NCBI RefSeq assembly: GCF_003074135.1
Contig: NZ_PPDK01000002.1
Span: forward strand, 372,001-436,000
Source: Euzebya tangerina
GTDB taxonomy: Bacteria > Actinomycetota > Nitriliruptoria > Euzebyales > Euzebyaceae
Length of the DNA stretch: 64,000 bases
Direction of reading: 5' to 3'
The notes beneath the pieces are model-generated. The model did not search any database, was not told where the DNA came from, and was given only the letters and a program-made list of their open reading frames with translations. A program made the position numbers and the translations under genes. Shown here piece by piece: positions 44,114-56,114 of this stretch; position 1 is the first letter of the stretch; the number at the start of each line of letters is the position of its first letter.

Positions 44114-45934
44114 CTACTGGTAGCTGATGAAGTCCGGGACGGGATCCAGAGCCAGGACCTCCGCAGGCGTGAAGAGATCGGGGTCCTCGTCGTAGAACAG
44201 CTTGAAGCCGTTGGCCCAGCGGCCGGTGTCATCGCTGATGAACCGGTAGGTGTCCAGCTTGACCGCCTGTCGGCCCTGGCCGTCCATGTGGAAGGTCACC
44301 GCCAGTTCGGGCGGGTTGATGATGGCGTCACGGTTCTCGACCATGCGGATCTGGAACTGGTGGACCACCAGCAGCTTCTGTGGAAGCCGCTCCTCGCGGA
44401 CCAGCCCGGAGAGGTACTCGGCGACCGCATTGACCTCGGCCGCGTCGACCTCGCCGACGTTGCCGGTGGGGGTCTCACCAGGATCGAGCCGCCACTCGGG
44501 GTCGAGCGCGAGGCCGACGTCGGGCTGGCGTAGGAACTCCTCGTATCGCCTCGCCTCCGTGAGGAAGTCCGTGCGCCCCGACTGCAGGTCGAGGACCAGG
44601 TACGCGCCATTGCGACGGGCCGCGTCGAGCCACGGCTGGATCTGCTCGGGCGTGGAGGGCGCGCTGTAGTCCCCGTCGGGGCCTGCGGCGGCCGTCGCGA
44701 CGGAGACGATCAGCTCGAAGGTCGGCAGGACCTGGCGGGTGCCGGCCTCGTAGGGCTCGGCCTGGTCGAGGAGTCTGTCGTACGCGGCGTCCGTAGGCTG
44801 CTCACCGAGTACCCCGAGCCCGGCGGTCGAGTGGTTGCCGTAGAAGGCGACCATGCGGTTGCGGGGAAAGAGCGTGAACCCGCCGCCGGGGAGTTCGCTC
44901 CCGGTCGTGATCGTCGGGATCTGCCACTCGACGTCGTCAGTCACGGCCGCCGTGCCACCGAGCACCTGAACGGTCGTCGTCCGCTCCTCGGCGACCTGCG
45001 AGCGGATGCGCAGAGCGACCTCCAGTGGCTCCCGAAGGTCAGCGCCGTCCACCAGGAGCAGCGACCCGCCACGCGCCGCCACAGCAGGGCCGACTGCCAG
45101 CGCATCGGGGAAGTCTCGCCCGGTCGCCACGGTGAGGACCGTGGGGTCGGCGCCCCGTTCCATCGCGGCGGACTGGACGGCGGCCGCGGTCGCGTAGCGG
45201 TTGGAGCCAGCGATTCGTCTGACCGGGGCGACCGCCGCCAGGTCGTCGGCGACGGAGGCACCGACGGCCGACTCACCGCCGACCAGCAGGACCTCGGTCG
45301 GTTGCCGCTCATCCAGGACCGCACGCGTGGCGGCTGGGAGCGCGTCCTGTTCGGTGATCAGGAGCGGCCAGCCGAGCAGCGCCGCCATCGGACCGGCGGC
45401 CAGCGCGTCGGGGAAGTCCTCACCGGTGGCGACAACGACGCCGTCGGCCTCCGGCAACTCCGCGGCCACCGCCGCACTGGTCTCATACCGGTCCTCGCCA
45501 GCGATCCGGCTGTGGCTGACCTCGCTTCCCAGATCCTCCAGCACCGAGTCCGACACGGCCTCCTCACCGCCCAGGACCAGGACGGTCTGGGCCCCCAGTC
45601 GTTCCAGCTCAGATCGGACGTCGTCCCGCAACGTGCGGCCGTCGGTCAGCAGCACCGGCCCACCCACCTCCGCCGCCCGTGGCCCGGCGGTCAGTGCGTC
45701 CGGAAAGGCGTCCGCGCGGACCAGGACGACGGTGGAGGCGGAGTCGAACGTCACGCGACTGAGGGCGACTGCCGTGCCGATCCGATCGCTGCCCGCCACA
45801 CGCTGAACGTCCGGCGCCTCCGGCTCGGAGCTGATCTGTGCCGGGGCCACGGGAACCCCGAGCGCGGTGACCAGCAGCCACATCGTCACCAGAGCCATGA
45901 TCCTGCGTCGCATCCCCATCAGTGTTGGCTTCAC
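44114..45934 (-). CDS. Secreted CWB2 protein with C-terminal TIM-barrel-like domain
   Basis: A 606-residue exported wall protein. Signal peptide about 8-33 (IMALVTMWLLVTALGVPVAPA); three CWB2 modules (about 43-330) opened by QRVAGSDRIGTAVALS, SRIAGEDRYETSAAVA and RRIAGSNRYATAAAVQ with VLVLGGEEAV and VLLVGGESAVG loops. From about 345 a different domain starts (RMVAFYGNHSTAGLGVLGEQ) and continues WLDAARRNGAYLVLDLQSGR, LALDPEWRLDPGE and LVVHQFQIRMV, a strand-helix alternation like a glycoside-hydrolase barrel. The Glu/Asp in DPEW are candidate active-site residues. Enzyme activity is inference. Confidence 0.85.
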   Translation of the reverse strand: MKPTLMGMRRRIMALVTMWLLVTALGVPVAPAQISSEPEAPDVQRVAGSDRIGTAVALSRVTFDSASTVVLVRADAFPDALTAGPRAAEVGGPVLLTDGRTLRDDVRSELERLGAQTVLVLGGEEAVSDSVLEDLGSEVSHSRIAGEDRYETSAAVAAELPEADGVVVATGEDFPDALAAGPMAALLGWPLLITEQDALPAATRAVLDERQPTEVLLVGGESAVGASVADDLAAVAPVRRIAGSNRYATAAAVQSAAMERGADPTVLTVATGRDFPDALAVGPAVAARGGSLLLVDGADLREPLEVALRIRSQVAEERTTTVQVLGGTAAVTDDVEWQIPTITTGSELPGGGFTLFPRNRMVAFYGNHSTAGLGVLGEQPTDAAYDRLLDQAEPYEAGTRQVLPTFELIVSVATAAAGPDGDYSAPSTPEQIQPWLDAARRNGAYLVLDLQSGRTDFLTEARRYEEFLRQPDVGLALDPEWRLDPGETPTGNVGEVDAAEVNAVAEYLSGLVREERLPQKLLVVHQFQIRMVENRDAIINPPELAVTFHMDGQGRQAVKLDTYRFISDDTGRWANGFKLFYDEDPDLFTPAEVLALDPVPDFISYQ

Positions 45935-49603: not shown

Positions 49604-50278
49604 ATGCGGTTTGCGATTCGCCTGTCCCTCCCCGATCGGCGGGGAGCCCTCTCGGCGGTCTCGAGCGCCATCGGCAAGGCCGGTGGCAACATCCTGTCCC
49701 TCGACGTCGTCGGCGTCGTTGACGGCATGGCCGTGGACGACATCACGGTGGAGGCCGAGGTCGAGCCGGATCTGCTGCGTCGGGCGATCGAGGACGTCCC
49801 CTCCGTGGTGGTCGAGACCATCGTCCACAGTGACACCTTCCGTGACCTGACCGCTCCGCTACGCCTGGCCACCCGCCTGGTCGATGGTGGAGTGGGGGCG
49901 GTCCGGTTGCTCGTCGACGGGCTGCCGGAGGCCCTGTGGGCGACGTGGGCCATCGTCGTGGCCGGGACCCACACCGGACCGGAGATCCTCCACCGCAGCG
50001 GCAACGTCCCGTCGGTCGAGGGGCTGGAGGCGCCGTGGATGCCACTGGATGACGGCCGGCGGCTGCAGCGCGCGCCCTGGATGCCGGAGGCGTGGCAGGA
50101 CCTGACGCAGCTGCAGGTGGCGGCCGCGCCGTTGGTGGAGCGCAACACGGCCGTGCTGATGGGTCGCAATGAGGGCCCCCGATTCCTGCCGGCGGAGGTC
50201 GACCAGTTGGGGCGACTGGCCCACATCGCGGTGCGGGCGGAGGTGCTCGGCGCTGGCGCCAGCCGGTTGCAGGCCTGA
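49604..50278 (+). CDS. ACT-domain protein with GAF-like C terminus
   Basis: A 224-residue protein. Residues 1-75 form an ACT domain (FAIRLSLPDRRGALSAVSSA, GGNILSLDVV, DDITVEAEVE), a small-molecule sensing fold usual in amino-acid regulation. The remainder (about 90-224: LRLATRLVDGGVGAVRLLVD; VAAAPLVERNTAVLMGRNEG; FLPAEVDQLGRLAHIAVRA) resembles a GAF-type sensor and lacks DNA-binding or catalytic motifs. The -10 6 nt upstream supports this ATG over an in-frame one 57 nt earlier. It precedes the acyltransferase gene by 32 nt; a link between them is unproven. Confidence 0.75.
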   Translation: MRFAIRLSLPDRRGALSAVSSAIGKAGGNILSLDVVGVVDGMAVDDITVEAEVEPDLLRRAIEDVPSVVVETIVHSDTFRDLTAPLRLATRLVDGGVGAVRLLVDGLPEALWATWAIVVAGTHTGPEILHRSGNVPSVEGLEAPWMPLDDGRRLQRAPWMPEAWQDLTQLQVAAAPLVERNTAVLMGRNEGPRFLPAEVDQLGRLAHIAVRAEVLGAGASRLQA

Positions 50279-50310: not shown

Positions 50311-51744
50311 ATGGCAGTTGACCGGCTCAGCGTCCTCGACTCCTCGTTCCTCAACCTCGAGACGACGGCTCACCACATGCACGTCGGCGGGTTGGGCGTG
50401 TTCGAGCCGGGCCTGCGCTACGCCGACGTGGTCCGCGTCCTGCGCGAGCGGATCGATCGGATCCCGAAGGCCCGCAAGCGGGTTGTCTTCAACAACCCCG
50501 TCGCCGGCCGGCCGATCTGGGTGGACGATCCCGACTTCGACCTCAGCTACCACGTCCGCCACGCCGCCCTCCCCAGCCCCGGTGACCGCGGGCAGCTGGG
50601 AGAGTTCCTGTCGCGCCTGATGAGCCGCCGGATGGACCGCGACCGGCCGCTGTGGGAGATCTACGTCATCGACGGATTGGAGGGCGACCGGGTCTGCCTC
50701 TTCCGCAAGGTGCACCTGGCGATGGCCAACGGCCAGGACGGTGACCCCTTCGGCCCGCTCCTCGACGAGGAGCCGACGGACCTCACCGCCGGCGCCGGTC
50801 GGTTCCAGCCGTCCTGGCATCCGGACCGGCCGCCGCCGCAGTCCGCGATCGTGGCCGACGCGATGGCCGAGCGGGTGCACCGCGGACAGCAGGCCGTCTT
50901 GGCGGTCATCGAGTCGATCGATCCGCGGGTGTACCTGCGGAACGCCGCCGGGGTGGCGGGAGCCGCCGGGGGTCTGATCGGTCGGCTGACGCGAGGTGCG
51001 CCGCAGTCGCCGCTGAACCGCCGCCTCAGCCAGCATCGGCGATTCGCCACGGTTGAGTGCGAGTTGGAGGATCTGCGGGACATCCGCCGGGCCTTCGGGG
51101 GGAACATCAACGACGTCGTCGTCGCCGTGGTCGGTGATGCGGTCGGGCGGCTGCTGCGCTGGCGGGGACACGAGACCAAGGACCTCGATCTGAAGGTCAT
51201 GGTGCCGGTTCGGGTCGACGAGCCCGAGCCGGGGCCACGTGGCTTCGGCGAGGCCCGCACCGTGGGGGACGGCGTGGTCGGCGTGCTGGCTCCGCTCCCC
51301 GTCATGCAGATGGACCCGGTCGCCAGGCTGTACCGGATCATGGGGGAGATGGCGGGGCTCAAGGAGTCACGCCAGGCGGTCGCGGCCGACCAGTTGGTGA
51401 AGCTCGCCGGGTACGCCCCGCCGGCCCTGCACGCCCGCGCGGCGCGACTGGTGCTGGCCGAGGAGCGCTACAACGTGGCCCTCTCCAACGCACCGGGGCC
51501 CCAGGAACCCCGCTATCTGGCGGGCACCCTGCTCGAGGAGTCCTACCCGTTCATTCCTCTGGCGGGTGAGAGTGCCCTCTCGATCGCCGTCTCCTCCTAC
51601 GCCGGCCGCATGCACTTCGGGCTGCTCGGCGACCGGGACACGCTGTTCGACATCGAACGGCTGGGGGACTTCATCACCGAGTCCATCGCCGACCTGCACG
51701 AAGCGGCGACGAGCCCGGCAGCCGGACCGAAGAGCCTGTCATGA
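50311..51744 (+). CDS. WS/DGAT-family acyltransferase with degenerate catalytic motif
   Basis: A 477-residue member of the wax ester synthase/diacylglycerol acyltransferase family that makes storage lipids in actinobacteria. N-terminal LSVLDSSFLNLETTAHHMHV and RPLWEIYVIDGL, later NINDVVVAVVGDAVGRLL, VPVRVD and SNAPGPQEPRYLAG, give clear membership. However the active-site motif, normally KVHHAMVDG, reads KVHLAMANGQDG at residues 133-144: the catalytic second His is Leu136 and the Asp is Asn140. Standard chemistry is therefore not expected. Length is normal, so this looks like repurposing, not decay. A 10-nt gap with AAGGAG precedes the XdhC gene. Confidence 0.85.
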   Translation: MAVDRLSVLDSSFLNLETTAHHMHVGGLGVFEPGLRYADVVRVLRERIDRIPKARKRVVFNNPVAGRPIWVDDPDFDLSYHVRHAALPSPGDRGQLGEFLSRLMSRRMDRDRPLWEIYVIDGLEGDRVCLFRKVHLAMANGQDGDPFGPLLDEEPTDLTAGAGRFQPSWHPDRPPPQSAIVADAMAERVHRGQQAVLAVIESIDPRVYLRNAAGVAGAAGGLIGRLTRGAPQSPLNRRLSQHRRFATVECELEDLRDIRRAFGGNINDVVVAVVGDAVGRLLRWRGHETKDLDLKVMVPVRVDEPEPGPRGFGEARTVGDGVVGVLAPLPVMQMDPVARLYRIMGEMAGLKESRQAVAADQLVKLAGYAPPALHARAARLVLAEERYNVALSNAPGPQEPRYLAGTLLEESYPFIPLAGESALSIAVSSYAGRMHFGLLGDRDTLFDIERLGDFITESIADLHEAATSPAAGPKSLS

Positions 51745-51754
51745 AGGAGCTGTC

Positions 51755-52528
51755 ATGAGCGTGTACGACGCGCTGGCCAAGGCCCGCGGGGGCGGGCAGA
51801 CCGTGGTGCTGATCACCGTGCTCGAGGTGACCGAGAACGCCTCCTCGCACACCGGCGCGAAGCTGGTGGTCGGCGCCGACGGCCCGATTGCCGGGTCGCT
51901 GGGCTGCTCGGAGTTCGACACCGCTGGGATCGAGGTTGCGACCGAGGCCCTCGCGAACGGCGGGCCGATCAGGCGACGGGTCGAGTTCGGCGGGCACGGC
52001 GAGGAGCGGGCCATCGAGGTCTTCGCCGAGGTCCACCACCCGCAGGAGTCGATCCTGATCTTCGGTGCCGGACCGGTCGGACAGGCTGTCGCGGCCCAGG
52101 CGACGCTGCTCGGCCGCCGGGTCGTGCTGGTGGCGCCAGGTGGCACGACCGACGTGCCCGCTGGGGTGGAGGTGAAGGCCGACGACCCCGGTCGGTACCT
52201 GCTGGCGGCACCGCCGGGAGCCGGTGACTCGGTGCTGCTCAGCGATCACGACGCGCCGTACGTGGACGAGGTCCTGCGGGTGGCGCTGGCCAGTGACGCC
52301 CGCTTCGTGGGCATGCTCGGGTCGAGGCGCCATGCACCCGAGGCGGTGGCGCGCCTGCGCGACAGCGGGACGCCGGAAGACCATCTGGCCCGGCTGCGGG
52401 CGCCGGTCGGCCTGGACATCGGCGGCCGTGAGCCCGCCGAGATCGCCCTGTCCATCGTGGCGGAGATGCTGATGGTCGAGCACGACCGGACAGGCGGCCG
52501 CCTGGGTCTGGACTGGTCGGAGGTATGA
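51755..52528 (+). CDS. XdhC/CoxI-family protein
   Basis: A 257-residue protein with the N-terminal XdhC_CoxI domain (VVLITVLEVTENASSHTGAK LVV region, GSLGCSEFD) and a C-terminal Rossmann domain (SILIFGAGPVGQAVAAQATL; FVGMLGSRRHAPEAVARLR; GLDIGGREPAEIALSIVAE). XdhC proteins insert or sulfurate the molybdenum cofactor of xanthine-dehydrogenase-type enzymes. No such enzyme is encoded here; the window's molybdoenzyme is of the sulfite-oxidase family, which does not use XdhC. AAGGAG before the ATG; the stop overlaps the miaE start. Confidence 0.88.
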   Translation: MSVYDALAKARGGGQTVVLITVLEVTENASSHTGAKLVVGADGPIAGSLGCSEFDTAGIEVATEALANGGPIRRRVEFGGHGEERAIEVFAEVHHPQESILIFGAGPVGQAVAAQATLLGRRVVLVAPGGTTDVPAGVEVKADDPGRYLLAAPPGAGDSVLLSDHDAPYVDEVLRVALASDARFVGMLGSRRHAPEAVARLRDSGTPEDHLARLRAPVGLDIGGREPAEIALSIVAEMLMVEHDRTGGRLGLDWSEV

Positions 52529-53163
52529 GCCCGCCAGCGGCGGACCAGCCGGCGCGCGACCCCTTCGTGCCCGATGAGCGGGTCGAGGCGTTGCTCATCG
52601 CCACACCGCCCGGCTGGGAGGAGGTCGCCCTCGGGAACCTCCACGCCACCATGAGCGACCACGCCCACGCGGAGAAGAAGGCCGCGCTCTCCGCGCTGTC
52701 GCTGCTCAACGCCAACCCGGCGCGAGACGAACTGGTCTACAAGATGGGCAAGCTCGCGCGGGAGGAGATCCGCCACCTGGACCAGGTGATCGGGCACATG
52801 CGACGGCGCGGCTGGTCGCTCCTGGCCGACCGGCCGGACCGCTTCGCCGGGGCGCTGCTGTCGGAGCGGCGTGGTGGGGGAGCGGAGGGGTTGTGCGACC
52901 GGCTGCTGGTGGCGGCGCTCATCGAGGCCCGATCGTGGGAGCGGCTGAACCTGCTCGGGCGGGCCCTGCGGTCGGCCGGGGACGTCGAGTTGGGGGAGTT
53001 CTACGGCGAACTGGCCAGGTCGGAGGCCGGTCACTACCGGGTCTTCGTCGAGCTGGCCGACGCTGAGTGCCCGGGCGTGGACGTGCACGGTCGGCTGTCG
53101 GAACTGGCGCAGGTGGAGGCCGGCGTCATCGCCGACCTCCCCCACGAGCCGCGCATCCACTGA
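52525..53163 (+). CDS. miaE: tRNA-(ms2io6A)-hydroxylase, MiaE family
   Basis: A di-iron ferritin-like enzyme hydroxylating the isopentenyl group at A37 of tRNA. The 212-residue helical bundle contains the paired carboxylate/His ligands: DHAHAEKKAALSAL, KLAREEIRHLDQVIGHM (ExxH) and ARSWERLNLLGRAL, ARSEAGHYRVFVELA (ExxH). Overlaps the preceding stop by ATGA and is 5 nt before otsB. Placement with XdhC and OtsB has no evident pathway logic. Actinobacterial MiaE substrates are not established, so function is family-based. Confidence 0.85.
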   Translation: MSPPAADQPARDPFVPDERVEALLIATPPGWEEVALGNLHATMSDHAHAEKKAALSALSLLNANPARDELVYKMGKLAREEIRHLDQVIGHMRRRGWSLLADRPDRFAGALLSERRGGGAEGLCDRLLVAALIEARSWERLNLLGRALRSAGDVELGEFYGELARSEAGHYRVFVELADAECPGVDVHGRLSELAQVEAGVIADLPHEPRIH

Positions 53164-53168
53164 TCAGG

Positions 53169-53930
53169 ATGGACCACACCATGGCTGACTGGCCCGACAC
53201 CGCCCCCGACCGTGCCTGCCTCGTGCTCGACTTCGACGGCACGCTGGCCCCGATGACGGCCGACCCGGCGAGGTCGGCCATGCCGGACAGCACCGCGCAG
53301 ATCGTCCAGGGCCTGGTCGGTCAGCTGGGGCGCGTGGCCATGGTCTCCGGGCGGCAGGCGGCCTTCCTGGCCGACCGGGTGCGCATCCCGGGTGTGGAGC
53401 TGATCGGGCTGTACGGCCTGGAGCGGGTCGTCGACGGTGAGATCGTGCCCGACGACCGGGTGGCGCCGTATGAGGAGGACCTCGACCGGGCCCGTGAGGT
53501 GCTGGCCGCTGTCGTGGCCGAGTGGGCCGGAGCCGAACTCGAGGACAAGGGGCGGGCACTCGGGGTCCACTGGCGTCGGGCGGACTCACCGGACGCCGAG
53601 CAGGCCCTCGTCCGGGCCGTGCAGGACGCGGCCGGCGAGCTCGCGGTCGAGGAGGGGAAGATGGTCATCGAGCTCCGACCCCCGGTGCCGGCCGACAAGG
53701 GCACCGCTGTGGCCGGGCTGGCGGAGGGCTTTGCGACCGTGGTCTACGCGGGCGATGACGTCGGCGACCTTCCCGCCTTCGCCGAGGTCGCACGTCGTGG
53801 TGGCCTTGGCGTCGCCGTCGACCACGGGGCCGAGACCGACCCTCGGGTCCTGCGCGCGGCGTCGGTCGTGGTGGACGGCACCGAGGGTATGGCCCGGTGG
53901 CTGCGGGCCGTCCTCGACCGCGTCACCTGA
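53169..53930 (+). CDS. otsB: Trehalose-6-phosphate phosphatase
   Basis: HAD-type phosphatase of 253 residues. Motif I VLDFDGTLAPMTADP near residue 18, motif II VSGRQ, cap region with LYGLERV, motif III Lys in PVPADKGTAVAGL and motif IV YAGDDVGDLPAF. Follows miaE on the same strand and is convergent with the GT20 synthase gene, so OtsA and OtsB lie tail-to-tail, 28 nt apart, sharing a palindrome. Two ATGs are possible (12 nt apart); the first is annotated. Confidence 0.9.
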   Translation: MDHTMADWPDTAPDRACLVLDFDGTLAPMTADPARSAMPDSTAQIVQGLVGQLGRVAMVSGRQAAFLADRVRIPGVELIGLYGLERVVDGEIVPDDRVAPYEEDLDRAREVLAAVVAEWAGAELEDKGRALGVHWRRADSPDAEQALVRAVQDAAGELAVEEGKMVIELRPPVPADKGTAVAGLAEGFATVVYAGDDVGDLPAFAEVARRGGLGVAVDHGAETDPRVLRAASVVVDGTEGMARWLRAVLDRVT

Positions 53931-53961
53931 GCGACGGCCCCGGTCGTCCGGCGGTCGCTCA
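53928..53961. terminator. Palindrome spanning both stops of otsB and the GT20 gene
   Basis: TGAGCGAC at the otsB stop pairs with GTCGCTCA at the opposing stop (8 bp perfect), with an inner CCGG-TCGT-CCGG stem. No T-run. Position suggests a bidirectional terminator. Confidence 0.5.
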
Positions 53962-55422
53962 GTACGCCAGCGCCTCCTCCAGCGCTGCCTCCTGTGCCGC
54001 GAGCCACTCCGCGGGTGCGCCGAGGTCGGCGGCCGCGCGCAGACCGGCGGCTCGCTCGGCCCGCTCCGTCGCGTTCATGGTCAGTGCGCGATGCAGCGCC
54101 TCGGCCTGCTGCGCCACATCGAAGGGGTTGATCATGATCGCGTCCTTCAGGACGGTGGCGGCACCGGCGTTGCGTGAGAGCACCAGCACCCCGTCGTTCT
54201 CGTTCAGAGACGGGCCCTCCTTCGCCACCAGGTTGGTGCCGTCGATCACCGGGTTGGTGAAGAGCACGTCGTACTCGCTCATGGCCGCGACCACCCGCGG
54301 GAAGTTCTGCTCGGTGTCGACCAGCAGCACCGCCTCGCCCCACACCTCGCGGATCCGATCGGCCTCCTGCAGGCACCGGTCGAGGTACTCGCGATACTCC
54401 TCGACGCCCTGACGAGAGGTGTTCAGCAGCATGCGGAAGTGCACCCGATCGGCCAGGTCGGGGTGGGTCTGCAGCAGCAGGTCGTAGGCGTGCAGGCCGC
54501 GCAAGATGTTCTTGGAAAGGTCGGTGCGATCGGCCCGCACGATCAGCTGGCGCTGGCCCACCTGCTCGCGCAGGTCCTCGCGCTCGCGCCTGGCGGCGTC
54601 GGAGTCCTGGACCGCCAGCAGGCCGGGTCGGTCGATGCCGAGGGTGAAGTCCCGGACCAGCGTGCTGCCATCAGCGGTGCGGATTCGGTCGAAGTCGGCG
54701 ACGCCGCCGCCAACCGTCGTCAGGCAGTCGCGGACGTTGTGCGCCCACTCAGGTGCGGAGATGCCCACCAGATCGCAGGCGGAGAGACCCTCGAGAATCG
54801 CGGAGACCATGCGGTCGGGTAGCCGTTGCAGGTACTGCGGATGCACCCACGGCGTATGGATGTACAGCAACATCCTCGCGTCCGGCAGCGCGGTGCGGAT
54901 GGTCGGTGCGGCGGTCAGCAGGTGGTAGTCCTGCAGGTGGATCTCGCACTCCAGGGACGAGCCATCCTCGTCGGTGGCCTCGGAGATCACGGCCTCGGCG
55001 ATCATCTCGTTCACCGCGAGGTAGTCCTCGAACGGGTCGGACCAGTTCATGCCGCTCGGCCGGTACGGGTCGGACCAGAGCTGGTGCAGCGTGAACCACA
55101 GCAGCCGGTTCGCGACCCGGTTGTAGTACTGGTCGTAGGCCTCGCCGGCATCGACCAGCCGCAGGGTGAACGTCCCGCGGTCGGTCTCCGCGTCGAAGGC
55201 TGCGCCGTCGTGCGCTGCCGCCATCTCCACGTCGCCCTCCTCCAGTGCCACCGACACCCACACGCCCGGCCGGTCCATCAGCGCGCCACCGAGGGCGACG
55301 ATCAGTCCGCCGCTGCCGCGGGTGGCGGTCCACGAGCCGTCGTCTTCACGGCTCCAGGAGACCGGCCCGCGATTGGACGCCACGATGAGCTTGCGCTGCG
55401 ATTGGTCATCACCAGAGGTCAT
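53959..55422 (-). CDS. otsA: Trehalose-6-phosphate synthase-like GT20 glycosyltransferase
   Basis: A 487-residue GT20 enzyme expected to join UDP/GDP-glucose and glucose-6-phosphate. Landmarks: IVASNRGPVSW at the start, GSGGLIVALGG, LQDYHLLTAAP, LLYIHTPWVHP, GISAPEWAHN, and VNPVIDGTNLVAKEGP-like FTNPVIDGTNLVAKEG near the C terminus. The phosphate-binding segment reads VRADRTDLSKNILRG, not the VDRLDYTKGI of classical OtsA, a variant also seen in some actinobacterial GT20 enzymes including pseudo-glycosyltransferases; the acceptor may differ. It overlaps lplA upstream by ATGA. Adjacent OtsB favours trehalose. Confidence 0.82.
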   Translation of the reverse strand: MTSGDDQSQRKLIVASNRGPVSWSREDDGSWTATRGSGGLIVALGGALMDRPGVWVSVALEEGDVEMAAAHDGAAFDAETDRGTFTLRLVDAGEAYDQYYNRVANRLLWFTLHQLWSDPYRPSGMNWSDPFEDYLAVNEMIAEAVISEATDEDGSSLECEIHLQDYHLLTAAPTIRTALPDARMLLYIHTPWVHPQYLQRLPDRMVSAILEGLSACDLVGISAPEWAHNVRDCLTTVGGGVADFDRIRTADGSTLVRDFTLGIDRPGLLAVQDSDAARREREDLREQVGQRQLIVRADRTDLSKNILRGLHAYDLLLQTHPDLADRVHFRMLLNTSRQGVEEYREYLDRCLQEADRIREVWGEAVLLVDTEQNFPRVVAAMSEYDVLFTNPVIDGTNLVAKEGPSLNENDGVLVLSRNAGAATVLKDAIMINPFDVAQQAEALHRALTMNATERAERAAGLRAAADLGAPAEWLAAQEAALEEALAY

Positions 55423-56114
55423 GCTGCGACCCTTCCCGATACCGCCTCGATTATCGCCTGGTTCTCGATAGGGTCCTGCGTCACGTCGTCGAGCCCGATG
55501 GCAGCCGCACGGATCGCCTGGGCTGCTCGACCGACGTCCAGGGCCGCTATCAGCGGGTCAGGTCGCCAGCGACGGAGCAGCCCGCACTGGATGAGGGCCC
55601 CGTGACGGCGGCGACGTTGGGACAGCCCGACCAACTTCTGGCCGCCGCTGCTGACCTCTCCGCGGCCGAGCGAGGCGTAGCAGATCTCAGCGAGCGGCCG
55701 CTGTTCGGGCGGGCCGAGGCGGGTGGCCGTCGCCGGGCCGGTGTGGATGGTGATGCCGGGGACCCCGAGCGCGGTCAGGGCGTCGGCCCATGCCTGTCCG
55801 ACGGGGTCGAACACCTGCCCCAGGTCCGCTGCAGCGAGCCACGGGTGCCCCGTGGGCAGGATGACGTCGAGGGAGAGGAGGTGGCGGTCCATGAGCACGG
55901 CCCCGCCGCCGGAAGGACGGCCGATCACCGCGTAGCCGTCCACCGGGGTGGGGTCGCGTTGTCCTCGGCCGAGGACGATGGCCTGGTCGGTCGGCAGGTA
56001 CCACCGCAGGCGGGGCCGTCCGTCCTCGCCGGTCTGGGCGAGCAGATCGACGGACCGCTCGAGGAGGGCGGCGCTGGTGTCCTGCTCCAGGCCCAGATCC
56101 ACCCACTCGGTCAT
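55419..56114 (-). CDS. Lipoate-protein ligase A family protein
   Basis: Attaches lipoate or octanoate to carrier lysines such as that of GcvH. The 231-residue protein has the BPL/LplA/LipB fold: AIVLGRGQRD, the substrate loop GRPSGGGAVLMDRHLLSLDV, EICYASLGRGEV and the catalytic Lys in SGGQKLVGLSQRRRRHGALI near 165. The C-terminal accessory domain of long LplA is missing, as in LipM/LipL-type transferases, so octanoyl transfer is an alternative. Translationally coupled to the GT20 gene downstream. No SD is obvious at its ATG, and it follows the DUF3467 gene by 4 nt. Confidence 0.85.
   Translation of the reverse strand: MTEWVDLGLEQDTSAALLERSVDLLAQTGEDGRPRLRWYLPTDQAIVLGRGQRDPTPVDGYAVIGRPSGGGAVLMDRHLLSLDVILPTGHPWLAAADLGQVFDPVGQAWADALTALGVPGITIHTGPATATRLGPPEQRPLAEICYASLGRGEVSSGGQKLVGLSQRRRRHGALIQCGLLRRWRPDPLIAALDVGRAAQAIRAAAIGLDDVTQDPIENQAIIEAVSGRVAA

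Follow-up and report, generated by a model that had tools for sequence, protein, structure and literature searches.

A WS/DGAT-family protein of Euzebya tangerina with a replaced catalytic centre

The window, the whole stretch of 64,000 nucleotides of Euzebya tangerina DNA analysed here, encodes a WS/DGAT-family protein in which the catalytic centre is replaced. The protein lacks the second His and the Asp of the HHxxxDG motif, and both losses are shared by its orthologues in one actinobacterial order. It is probably a repurposed WS/DGAT fold that binds lipid instead of esterifying it. The gene and its motifs are as follows, with counts for the full-length orthologues and for the intact homologues.

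50311–51744, + strand: WS/DGAT-family protein with replaced catalytic centre (TIGR02946, PF03007 and PF06974 matches; AlphaFold2 model)
50647–50658, + strand: PLWE (aa 113–116), kept in 13/13 full-length orthologues
50707–50733, + strand: KVHLAMANG (aa 133–141) replacing KxHHxxxDG by alignment, with L136 at the second His, N140 at the Asp and the first His kept as H135
51109–51114, + strand: ND (aa 267–268), kept; N in 11/13 and D in 13/13 full-length orthologues
51202–51219, + strand: VPVRVD (aa 298–303) for VPVSVR, Ser301 to Arg; Arg in 13/13 orthologues, Ser in 35/36 intact homologues
51265–51270, + strand: GD (aa 319–320) for GN; D, E, S or T in 13/13 orthologues, N in 35/36 intact homologues
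51484–51501, + strand: SNAPGP (aa 392–397) for S/TNVPGP; Ala394 in 13/13 orthologues, Val in 36/36 intact homologues

The reading frame starts with ATG and stays open over its full length of 477 aa. TIGR02946 matches the protein with 382.4 bits (cut-off 309.95) and all positions 1–453 of 453 are aligned, which agrees with the first-pass annotation of this DNA that the full length is kept. The matches to PF03007 (197 bits) and PF06974 (101 bits) are nearly end to end. AlphaFold2 gave a model with pLDDT 78.4 for the window protein and one with 79.4 for the intact homologue L045, and the top PDB matches of both models by Foldseek are the solved WS/DGATs 6chj and 7nxg. Against 6chj_A, the window protein gives an E-value of 2.4e-33 and a TM-score of 0.66 by query length, in line with a WS/DGAT fold. 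The PLW and ND motifs of WS/DGAT enzymes are present, and HLxxxNG stands in the place of HHxxxDG. Profile and fold make the product a WS/DGAT homologue; as a WS/DGAT enzyme it is putative because the defining motif is missing.

L136 and N140 align with the second His and the Asp of 6chj and 7nxg, whose motifs at this site are KVHHSLVDG and KIHHAMVDG. The replacement of these two residues had been read from the sequence at 50703–50740, and the alignment places it inside that interval. The same annotation held that every other family motif is kept. This did not stand: PLWE and ND are intact, but VPVSVR is VPVRVD, GN is GD and NVPGP is NAPGP. The VPxSxR, GN and NVPGP motifs line the catalytic site in the WS/DGAT family and its clan.

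To compare conserved positions, 47 columns that are at least 95% conserved in the 36 intact homologues were scored in the 13 full-length orthologues. All 13 orthologues keep 31 of the 47 columns, and 10 or more orthologues keep 38. In six columns the conserved residue is missing from every one of the 13. Five of these are real replacements: the second His and the Asp of HHxxxDG, Ser301 of VPxSxR, Asn320 of GN and Val394 of NVPGP. The sixth concerns the Gly of HHxxxDG and comes from alignment gaps; the ungapped reading gives Gly in 7/13 orthologues. R303 of VPxSxR, which is present in 33/36 intact homologues, is also gone in 13/13. In addition, each of the 13 orthologues has D276, D291, D293 and E346, residues untypical of intact homologues. 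Because every complete replacement lies in a motif, and in two cases the new residue is itself fixed, the pattern looks like remodelling rather than decay. Since three more conserved motifs are changed in 13/13, the centre appears to have been rebuilt, which is more than a two-residue change. These replacements suggest that acyltransferase activity has been lost.

Thirty genomes of the order were searched, and 14 contained an orthologue, at about 55–81% identity. The carriers are four genomes of the genus (G000–G003, of which G000 is the 4.78-Mb window genome) and ten of family f2 (G007, G014, G015, G016, G017, G019, G020, G022, G023 and G025). Thirteen of the copies are full length and that of G023 is split across two contigs. 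The second His is absent in 14/14 (Val in G014, Leu in each of the rest), and so is the Asp, replaced by Asn, Gly or Ala. Relatives with an intact HHxxxDG had been named beforehand as the mark of a strain-specific mutation; 0/14 orthologues have one, and the reading survives. All 13 full-length orthologues pass the TIGR02946 cut-off. G005 has no full copy and contains a relic-like piece of about 40–60 aa similar to the gene (L145:3791–3967, G005:C75), which lies on a contig other than that of the conserved locus. The class-wide search gave some kind of match in 51/66 genomes. Among the next class homologues (about 40% identity), HHxxxDG is intact in 14 of the 16 that were fetched and placed in the tree, and the second His is N in L116 and Q in L127.

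The tree was built from 106 proteins with the motif columns excluded, as a quick tree with SH-aLRT support only. The set is biased: of the 488 candidates of one search, only the best 80 were used. Merging nine duplicate pairs brought it to 106. L016 and L017 (fragments) and L098–L102 (repeats of places already included) were left out, and eight more loci were skipped: the fragment L118 and seven whose extended match contains an in-frame stop and in which the motif is visible with Q or P at the second His. The 13 full-length orthologues form one clade (SH-aLRT 100), and its sister is the intact class homologues, with an SH-aLRT of only 84. The second-His state requires six changes on this tree, and five of the changes are forced by starred branches.

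Selection was measured in the four genomes of the genus (six pairs) with our own Nei-Gojobori script for pN/pS, dN and dS. The pN/pS of the gene was 0.045–0.375, versus 0.060–0.402 for the intact paralogue (L002, L007, L008, L009) in the same genomes. For the closest pair, G001 and G002, dN and dS were 0.013 and 0.37 for the gene, and 0.020 and 0.44 for the intact paralogue. Purifying selection on the gene within the genus is thus as strong as on the intact paralogue. The first-pass idea of a non-catalytic or altered acyltransferase under selection fits the fixation in 14/14, the single clade of 13 and a pN/pS like that of the intact paralogue, but a change of two residues understates what is altered in 13/13.

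We propose the following history. The orthologous group of WS/DGAT-fold proteins, which in this analysis occurred in a single actinobacterial order (Euzebya and Egibacteraceae relatives), would have lost two residues of HHxxxDG, the general-base His and the Asp, most simply in one event on its stem. In the same lineage, the Ser of VPxSxR would have become Arg, the Val of NVPGP would have become Ala and the Asn of GN would have been replaced, while the scaffold, the first His, PLWE, ND and PGP would have been retained. The protein probably no longer carries out His-catalysed transfer from acyl-CoA to an alcohol or diacylglycerol, because the second His is the directly catalytic one: in the WS/DGAT described in PMC11948995, His133 is directly responsible for catalysis and His132 is structural. 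The tunnel may be kept as a putative binding site for an acyl chain, acyl-CoA or a neutral lipid, and the modelled fold is consistent with such a lipid-binding role. Such binding could have a part in storage, delivery, sensing or recruitment, and an anionic head group could be favoured in the pocket by the fixed Arg301.

That the protein is still an O-acyltransferase seems considerably less probable, though it is the strongest of the alternatives. The first His, a clade-specific residue or the substrate would then replace the second His, perhaps with another acceptor, and D276, D291, D293 and E346, given their invariance in the 13, are possible new catalytic residues. The purifying selection, equal to that on the intact paralogue, would fit a working enzyme, as would the finding of the protein as the sole family member in G007 and G022. 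Against it, the Asp, Ser301 and Asn320 are gone too, and both His are reportedly essential according to one WS/DGAT mutagenesis paper.

The many actinobacterial relatives with a replaced second His, in which the Asp is mostly kept, speak for retained activity. One of these genes, atf10 of RHA1, in which the second His is Ser (PMC2667194), is reported as up-regulated during TAG storage (PMC4850399). Among the 106 proteins, 57 outside the orthologue clade carry Q, P, N, S or L in place of the second His. They keep the Asp in 55/57, Ser301 in 52/57, Val394 in 53/57 and Asn320 in 41/57. L116 and L127, both from Nitriliruptoria, are among the 57; the other 55, from other actinobacteria, lie on a separate tree branch. 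Loss of the second His is described for atf4, atf10 and atf14 of RHA1 and for H[L/S/P]xxxDG proteins of R. opacus PD630 (PMC2667194, PMC3169528). Such Rhodococcus atf-type proteins share the second-His loss with the orthologue clade, but the clade has also lost the Asp and further motifs. In other known variants the first His is affected. Halobacterial and protist WS/DGATs have NH, SH or DH for HH, with the second His kept, and a Thraustochytrium pair with an altered first His is reported to be active in vitro (PMC11948995, PMC5513132). An altered motif is common to them and the window protein, whereas the latter keeps the first His and alters the second.

A DUF6912-like gene lies at most 300 bp downstream of 55/55 non-Nitriliruptoria second-His-replaced proteins, and not at L116 or L127. 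This neighbour count covers 105 of the 106 proteins (one tandem gene has no locus of its own); three DUF6912 calls were confirmed as PF21853 by Pfam and the rest were made by tblastn. Among the 35 intact proteins, DUF6912 is there in 2, about 950–985 bp further in 4 and absent in 28 within searched loci that extend only about 1.5 kb past the match; in 1 the stretch was too short. Examples of this conserved neighbour pair are at L020:7383–7874, L069:7403–7969 and L073:7435–7977, plus 52 further loci. When second-His loss was compared with DUF6912 adjacency on the tree, five independent starred-branch pairs were obtained, one concordant and four without difference, which is not significant; DUF6912 adjacency itself requires only two changes. 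PF21853 was found in 0/14 of the Nitriliruptoria genomes searched, including that of the window. The window protein, with the Asp lost too and no DUF6912 neighbour, falls outside this Atf10-like DUF6912-linked group. At a Prescottella locus of the group, an Fer2 oxidoreductase and two fatty-acid desaturases lie alongside, resembling RHA1 atf10, which is described as adjoining fatty-acid desaturase genes (PMC2667194). For M. tuberculosis, the literature treats the gene pair Rv3233c–Rv3234c as a single interrupted coding sequence, with ppk-2 and Rv3231c as neighbours (PMC2277376, PMC4899718).

It is improbable that the protein assists or regulates, without catalysis of its own, an intact WS/DGAT paralogue of the same cell. 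The window genome does have two intact paralogues, with NHHAAIDG and FHHSVFDG. In contrast, the search of the 14 carrier genomes with PF03007 and TIGR02946 found no further WS/DGAT copy in G007 and G022, where the sole family matches (G007:C1:230877–232256 and G022:C163:38768–40126) both lack the catalytic residues. G007 is a single contig at 95% completeness and G022 is 96% complete, so that an overlooked paralogue is possible. As the only family copy found in these two genomes, the protein need not serve an intact paralogue. The same search of G023 (76% complete) found only the two pieces of the split gene. A tandem WS/DGAT pair with HHCMADG and HHCMVDG, 28–32% identical to the window protein, was seen in G003 (L013, G003:C57:775–3485).

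Still less likely is the gain of a different chemistry (dehydratase, hydrolase or other), such as is found in further proteins of the condensation-domain-like fold. In its favour, all 13 orthologues carry Arg301 and Ala394, and Foldseek places an AzeD dehydratase fourth, behind the WS/DGATs; however, the intact homologue gives the same fourth match, which makes the ranking a sign of the shared fold and no more. In glycopeptide NRPS, the X-domain belongs to the same broad fold class and also has a degenerate HHxxxDG. It is described as having HRxxxDE, being inactive and conserved, and recruiting P450s (PMC6565677). It serves here only as a precedent from the wider fold and is part of a megasynthase, whereas the window protein is a stand-alone ORF with two WS/DGAT domains only.

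A strain-specific mutation, a decaying gene or pseudogene, or a sequencing or assembly error, for which only the relic-like fragment in G005 speaks, was rejected as very improbable, because 14/14 genomes agree, pN/pS is low and 13 ORFs are full length.

The genes next to the one described above are as follows.

49604–50278, + strand: ACT-domain protein (PF01842), directly upstream; position varies in relatives
51755–52528, + strand: XdhC/CoxI-family protein (PF13478, 104 bits; PF02625, 42 bits), start 10 bp past the stop codon; next gene in 11/14
52525–53163, + strand: MiaE-family protein (PF06175), overlapping the stop codon of the xdhC-like gene
53169–53930, + strand: trehalose-phosphatase, OtsB-like (PF02358)
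53959–55422, − strand: GT20 trehalose-phosphate synthase, OtsA-like (PF00982), conserved flank by synteny
55419–56114, − strand: lipoyl ligase family protein (PF21948), conserved flank by synteny

The gene and the xdhC-like gene on the same strand perhaps belong to one operon. The xdhC-like gene is not next in 3/14 carriers (G015, G016 and G017). In the seven order genomes without the gene that were examined (G005, G006, G010, G011, G012, G026 and G027), the neighbourhood is partly retained, and their fetched stretches contain XdhC in 7, the lipoyl ligase in 6 and OtsA in 5. XdhC-like proteins at least 55% identical to that of the window occur in 23/66 class genomes (a 24th is partial), all in the order of the window. 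A dedicated partnership with xdhC is weakened by the close-type xdhC in gene-less genomes and by the carriers without adjacency. The xdhC link is one of place and is not obligate.

More tentatively, the observations on motifs, paralogues and neighbours can be joined. The WS/DGAT of this order may have become a stand-alone lipid binder whose pocket was rebuilt (Leu replacing His, Arg replacing Ser, Ala replacing Val). It would persist in genomes in which other WS/DGATs were not found and may work with the XdhC-like protein; the repeated shedding of the His elsewhere in the subfamily would then point to an old non-catalytic role of the fold. A joint reading of this breadth is possible, and we give it less credence than lipid binding as such.

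The AtfA-type bacterial WS/DGATs (TIGR02946, PF03007 plus PF06974; 6chj, 7nxg) share with the window protein the profile, the predicted fold, the first His, PLW, ND and PGP. They differ in the second His, the Asp, the Ser of VPxSxR, the Asn of GN and the Val of NVPGP, which all 13 orthologues replace. For Rhodococcus atf genes, proteins changed at the second His only are already in the literature. No description was found in the literature searched of a loss that extends to the Asp and further motifs and is fixed in every carrier within an order. The search for a WS/DGAT pseudoenzyme found none, and that on Euzebya gave a single paper, a metagenome survey; different wording might have missed some in either search.

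WS/DGAT genes are taken as evidence for wax or fat storage. Automatic annotation would call storage-lipid synthesis from a protein that is probably unable to do it. Such annotation would mislead, because 13/13 orthologues pass TIGR02946 without the catalytic residues and no further copy was found in G007 and G022. With their intact sisters for comparison, the orthologues are also a series of pseudoenzyme-like proteins provided by nature and maintained by selection, and they allow a direct test for a non-catalytic role of the fold.

Elsewhere in the window, a 606-aa ORF at 44114–45934 on the − strand has repeated VxRIAGxxRYxTA-like stretches, which by eye resemble cell-wall-binding repeats.
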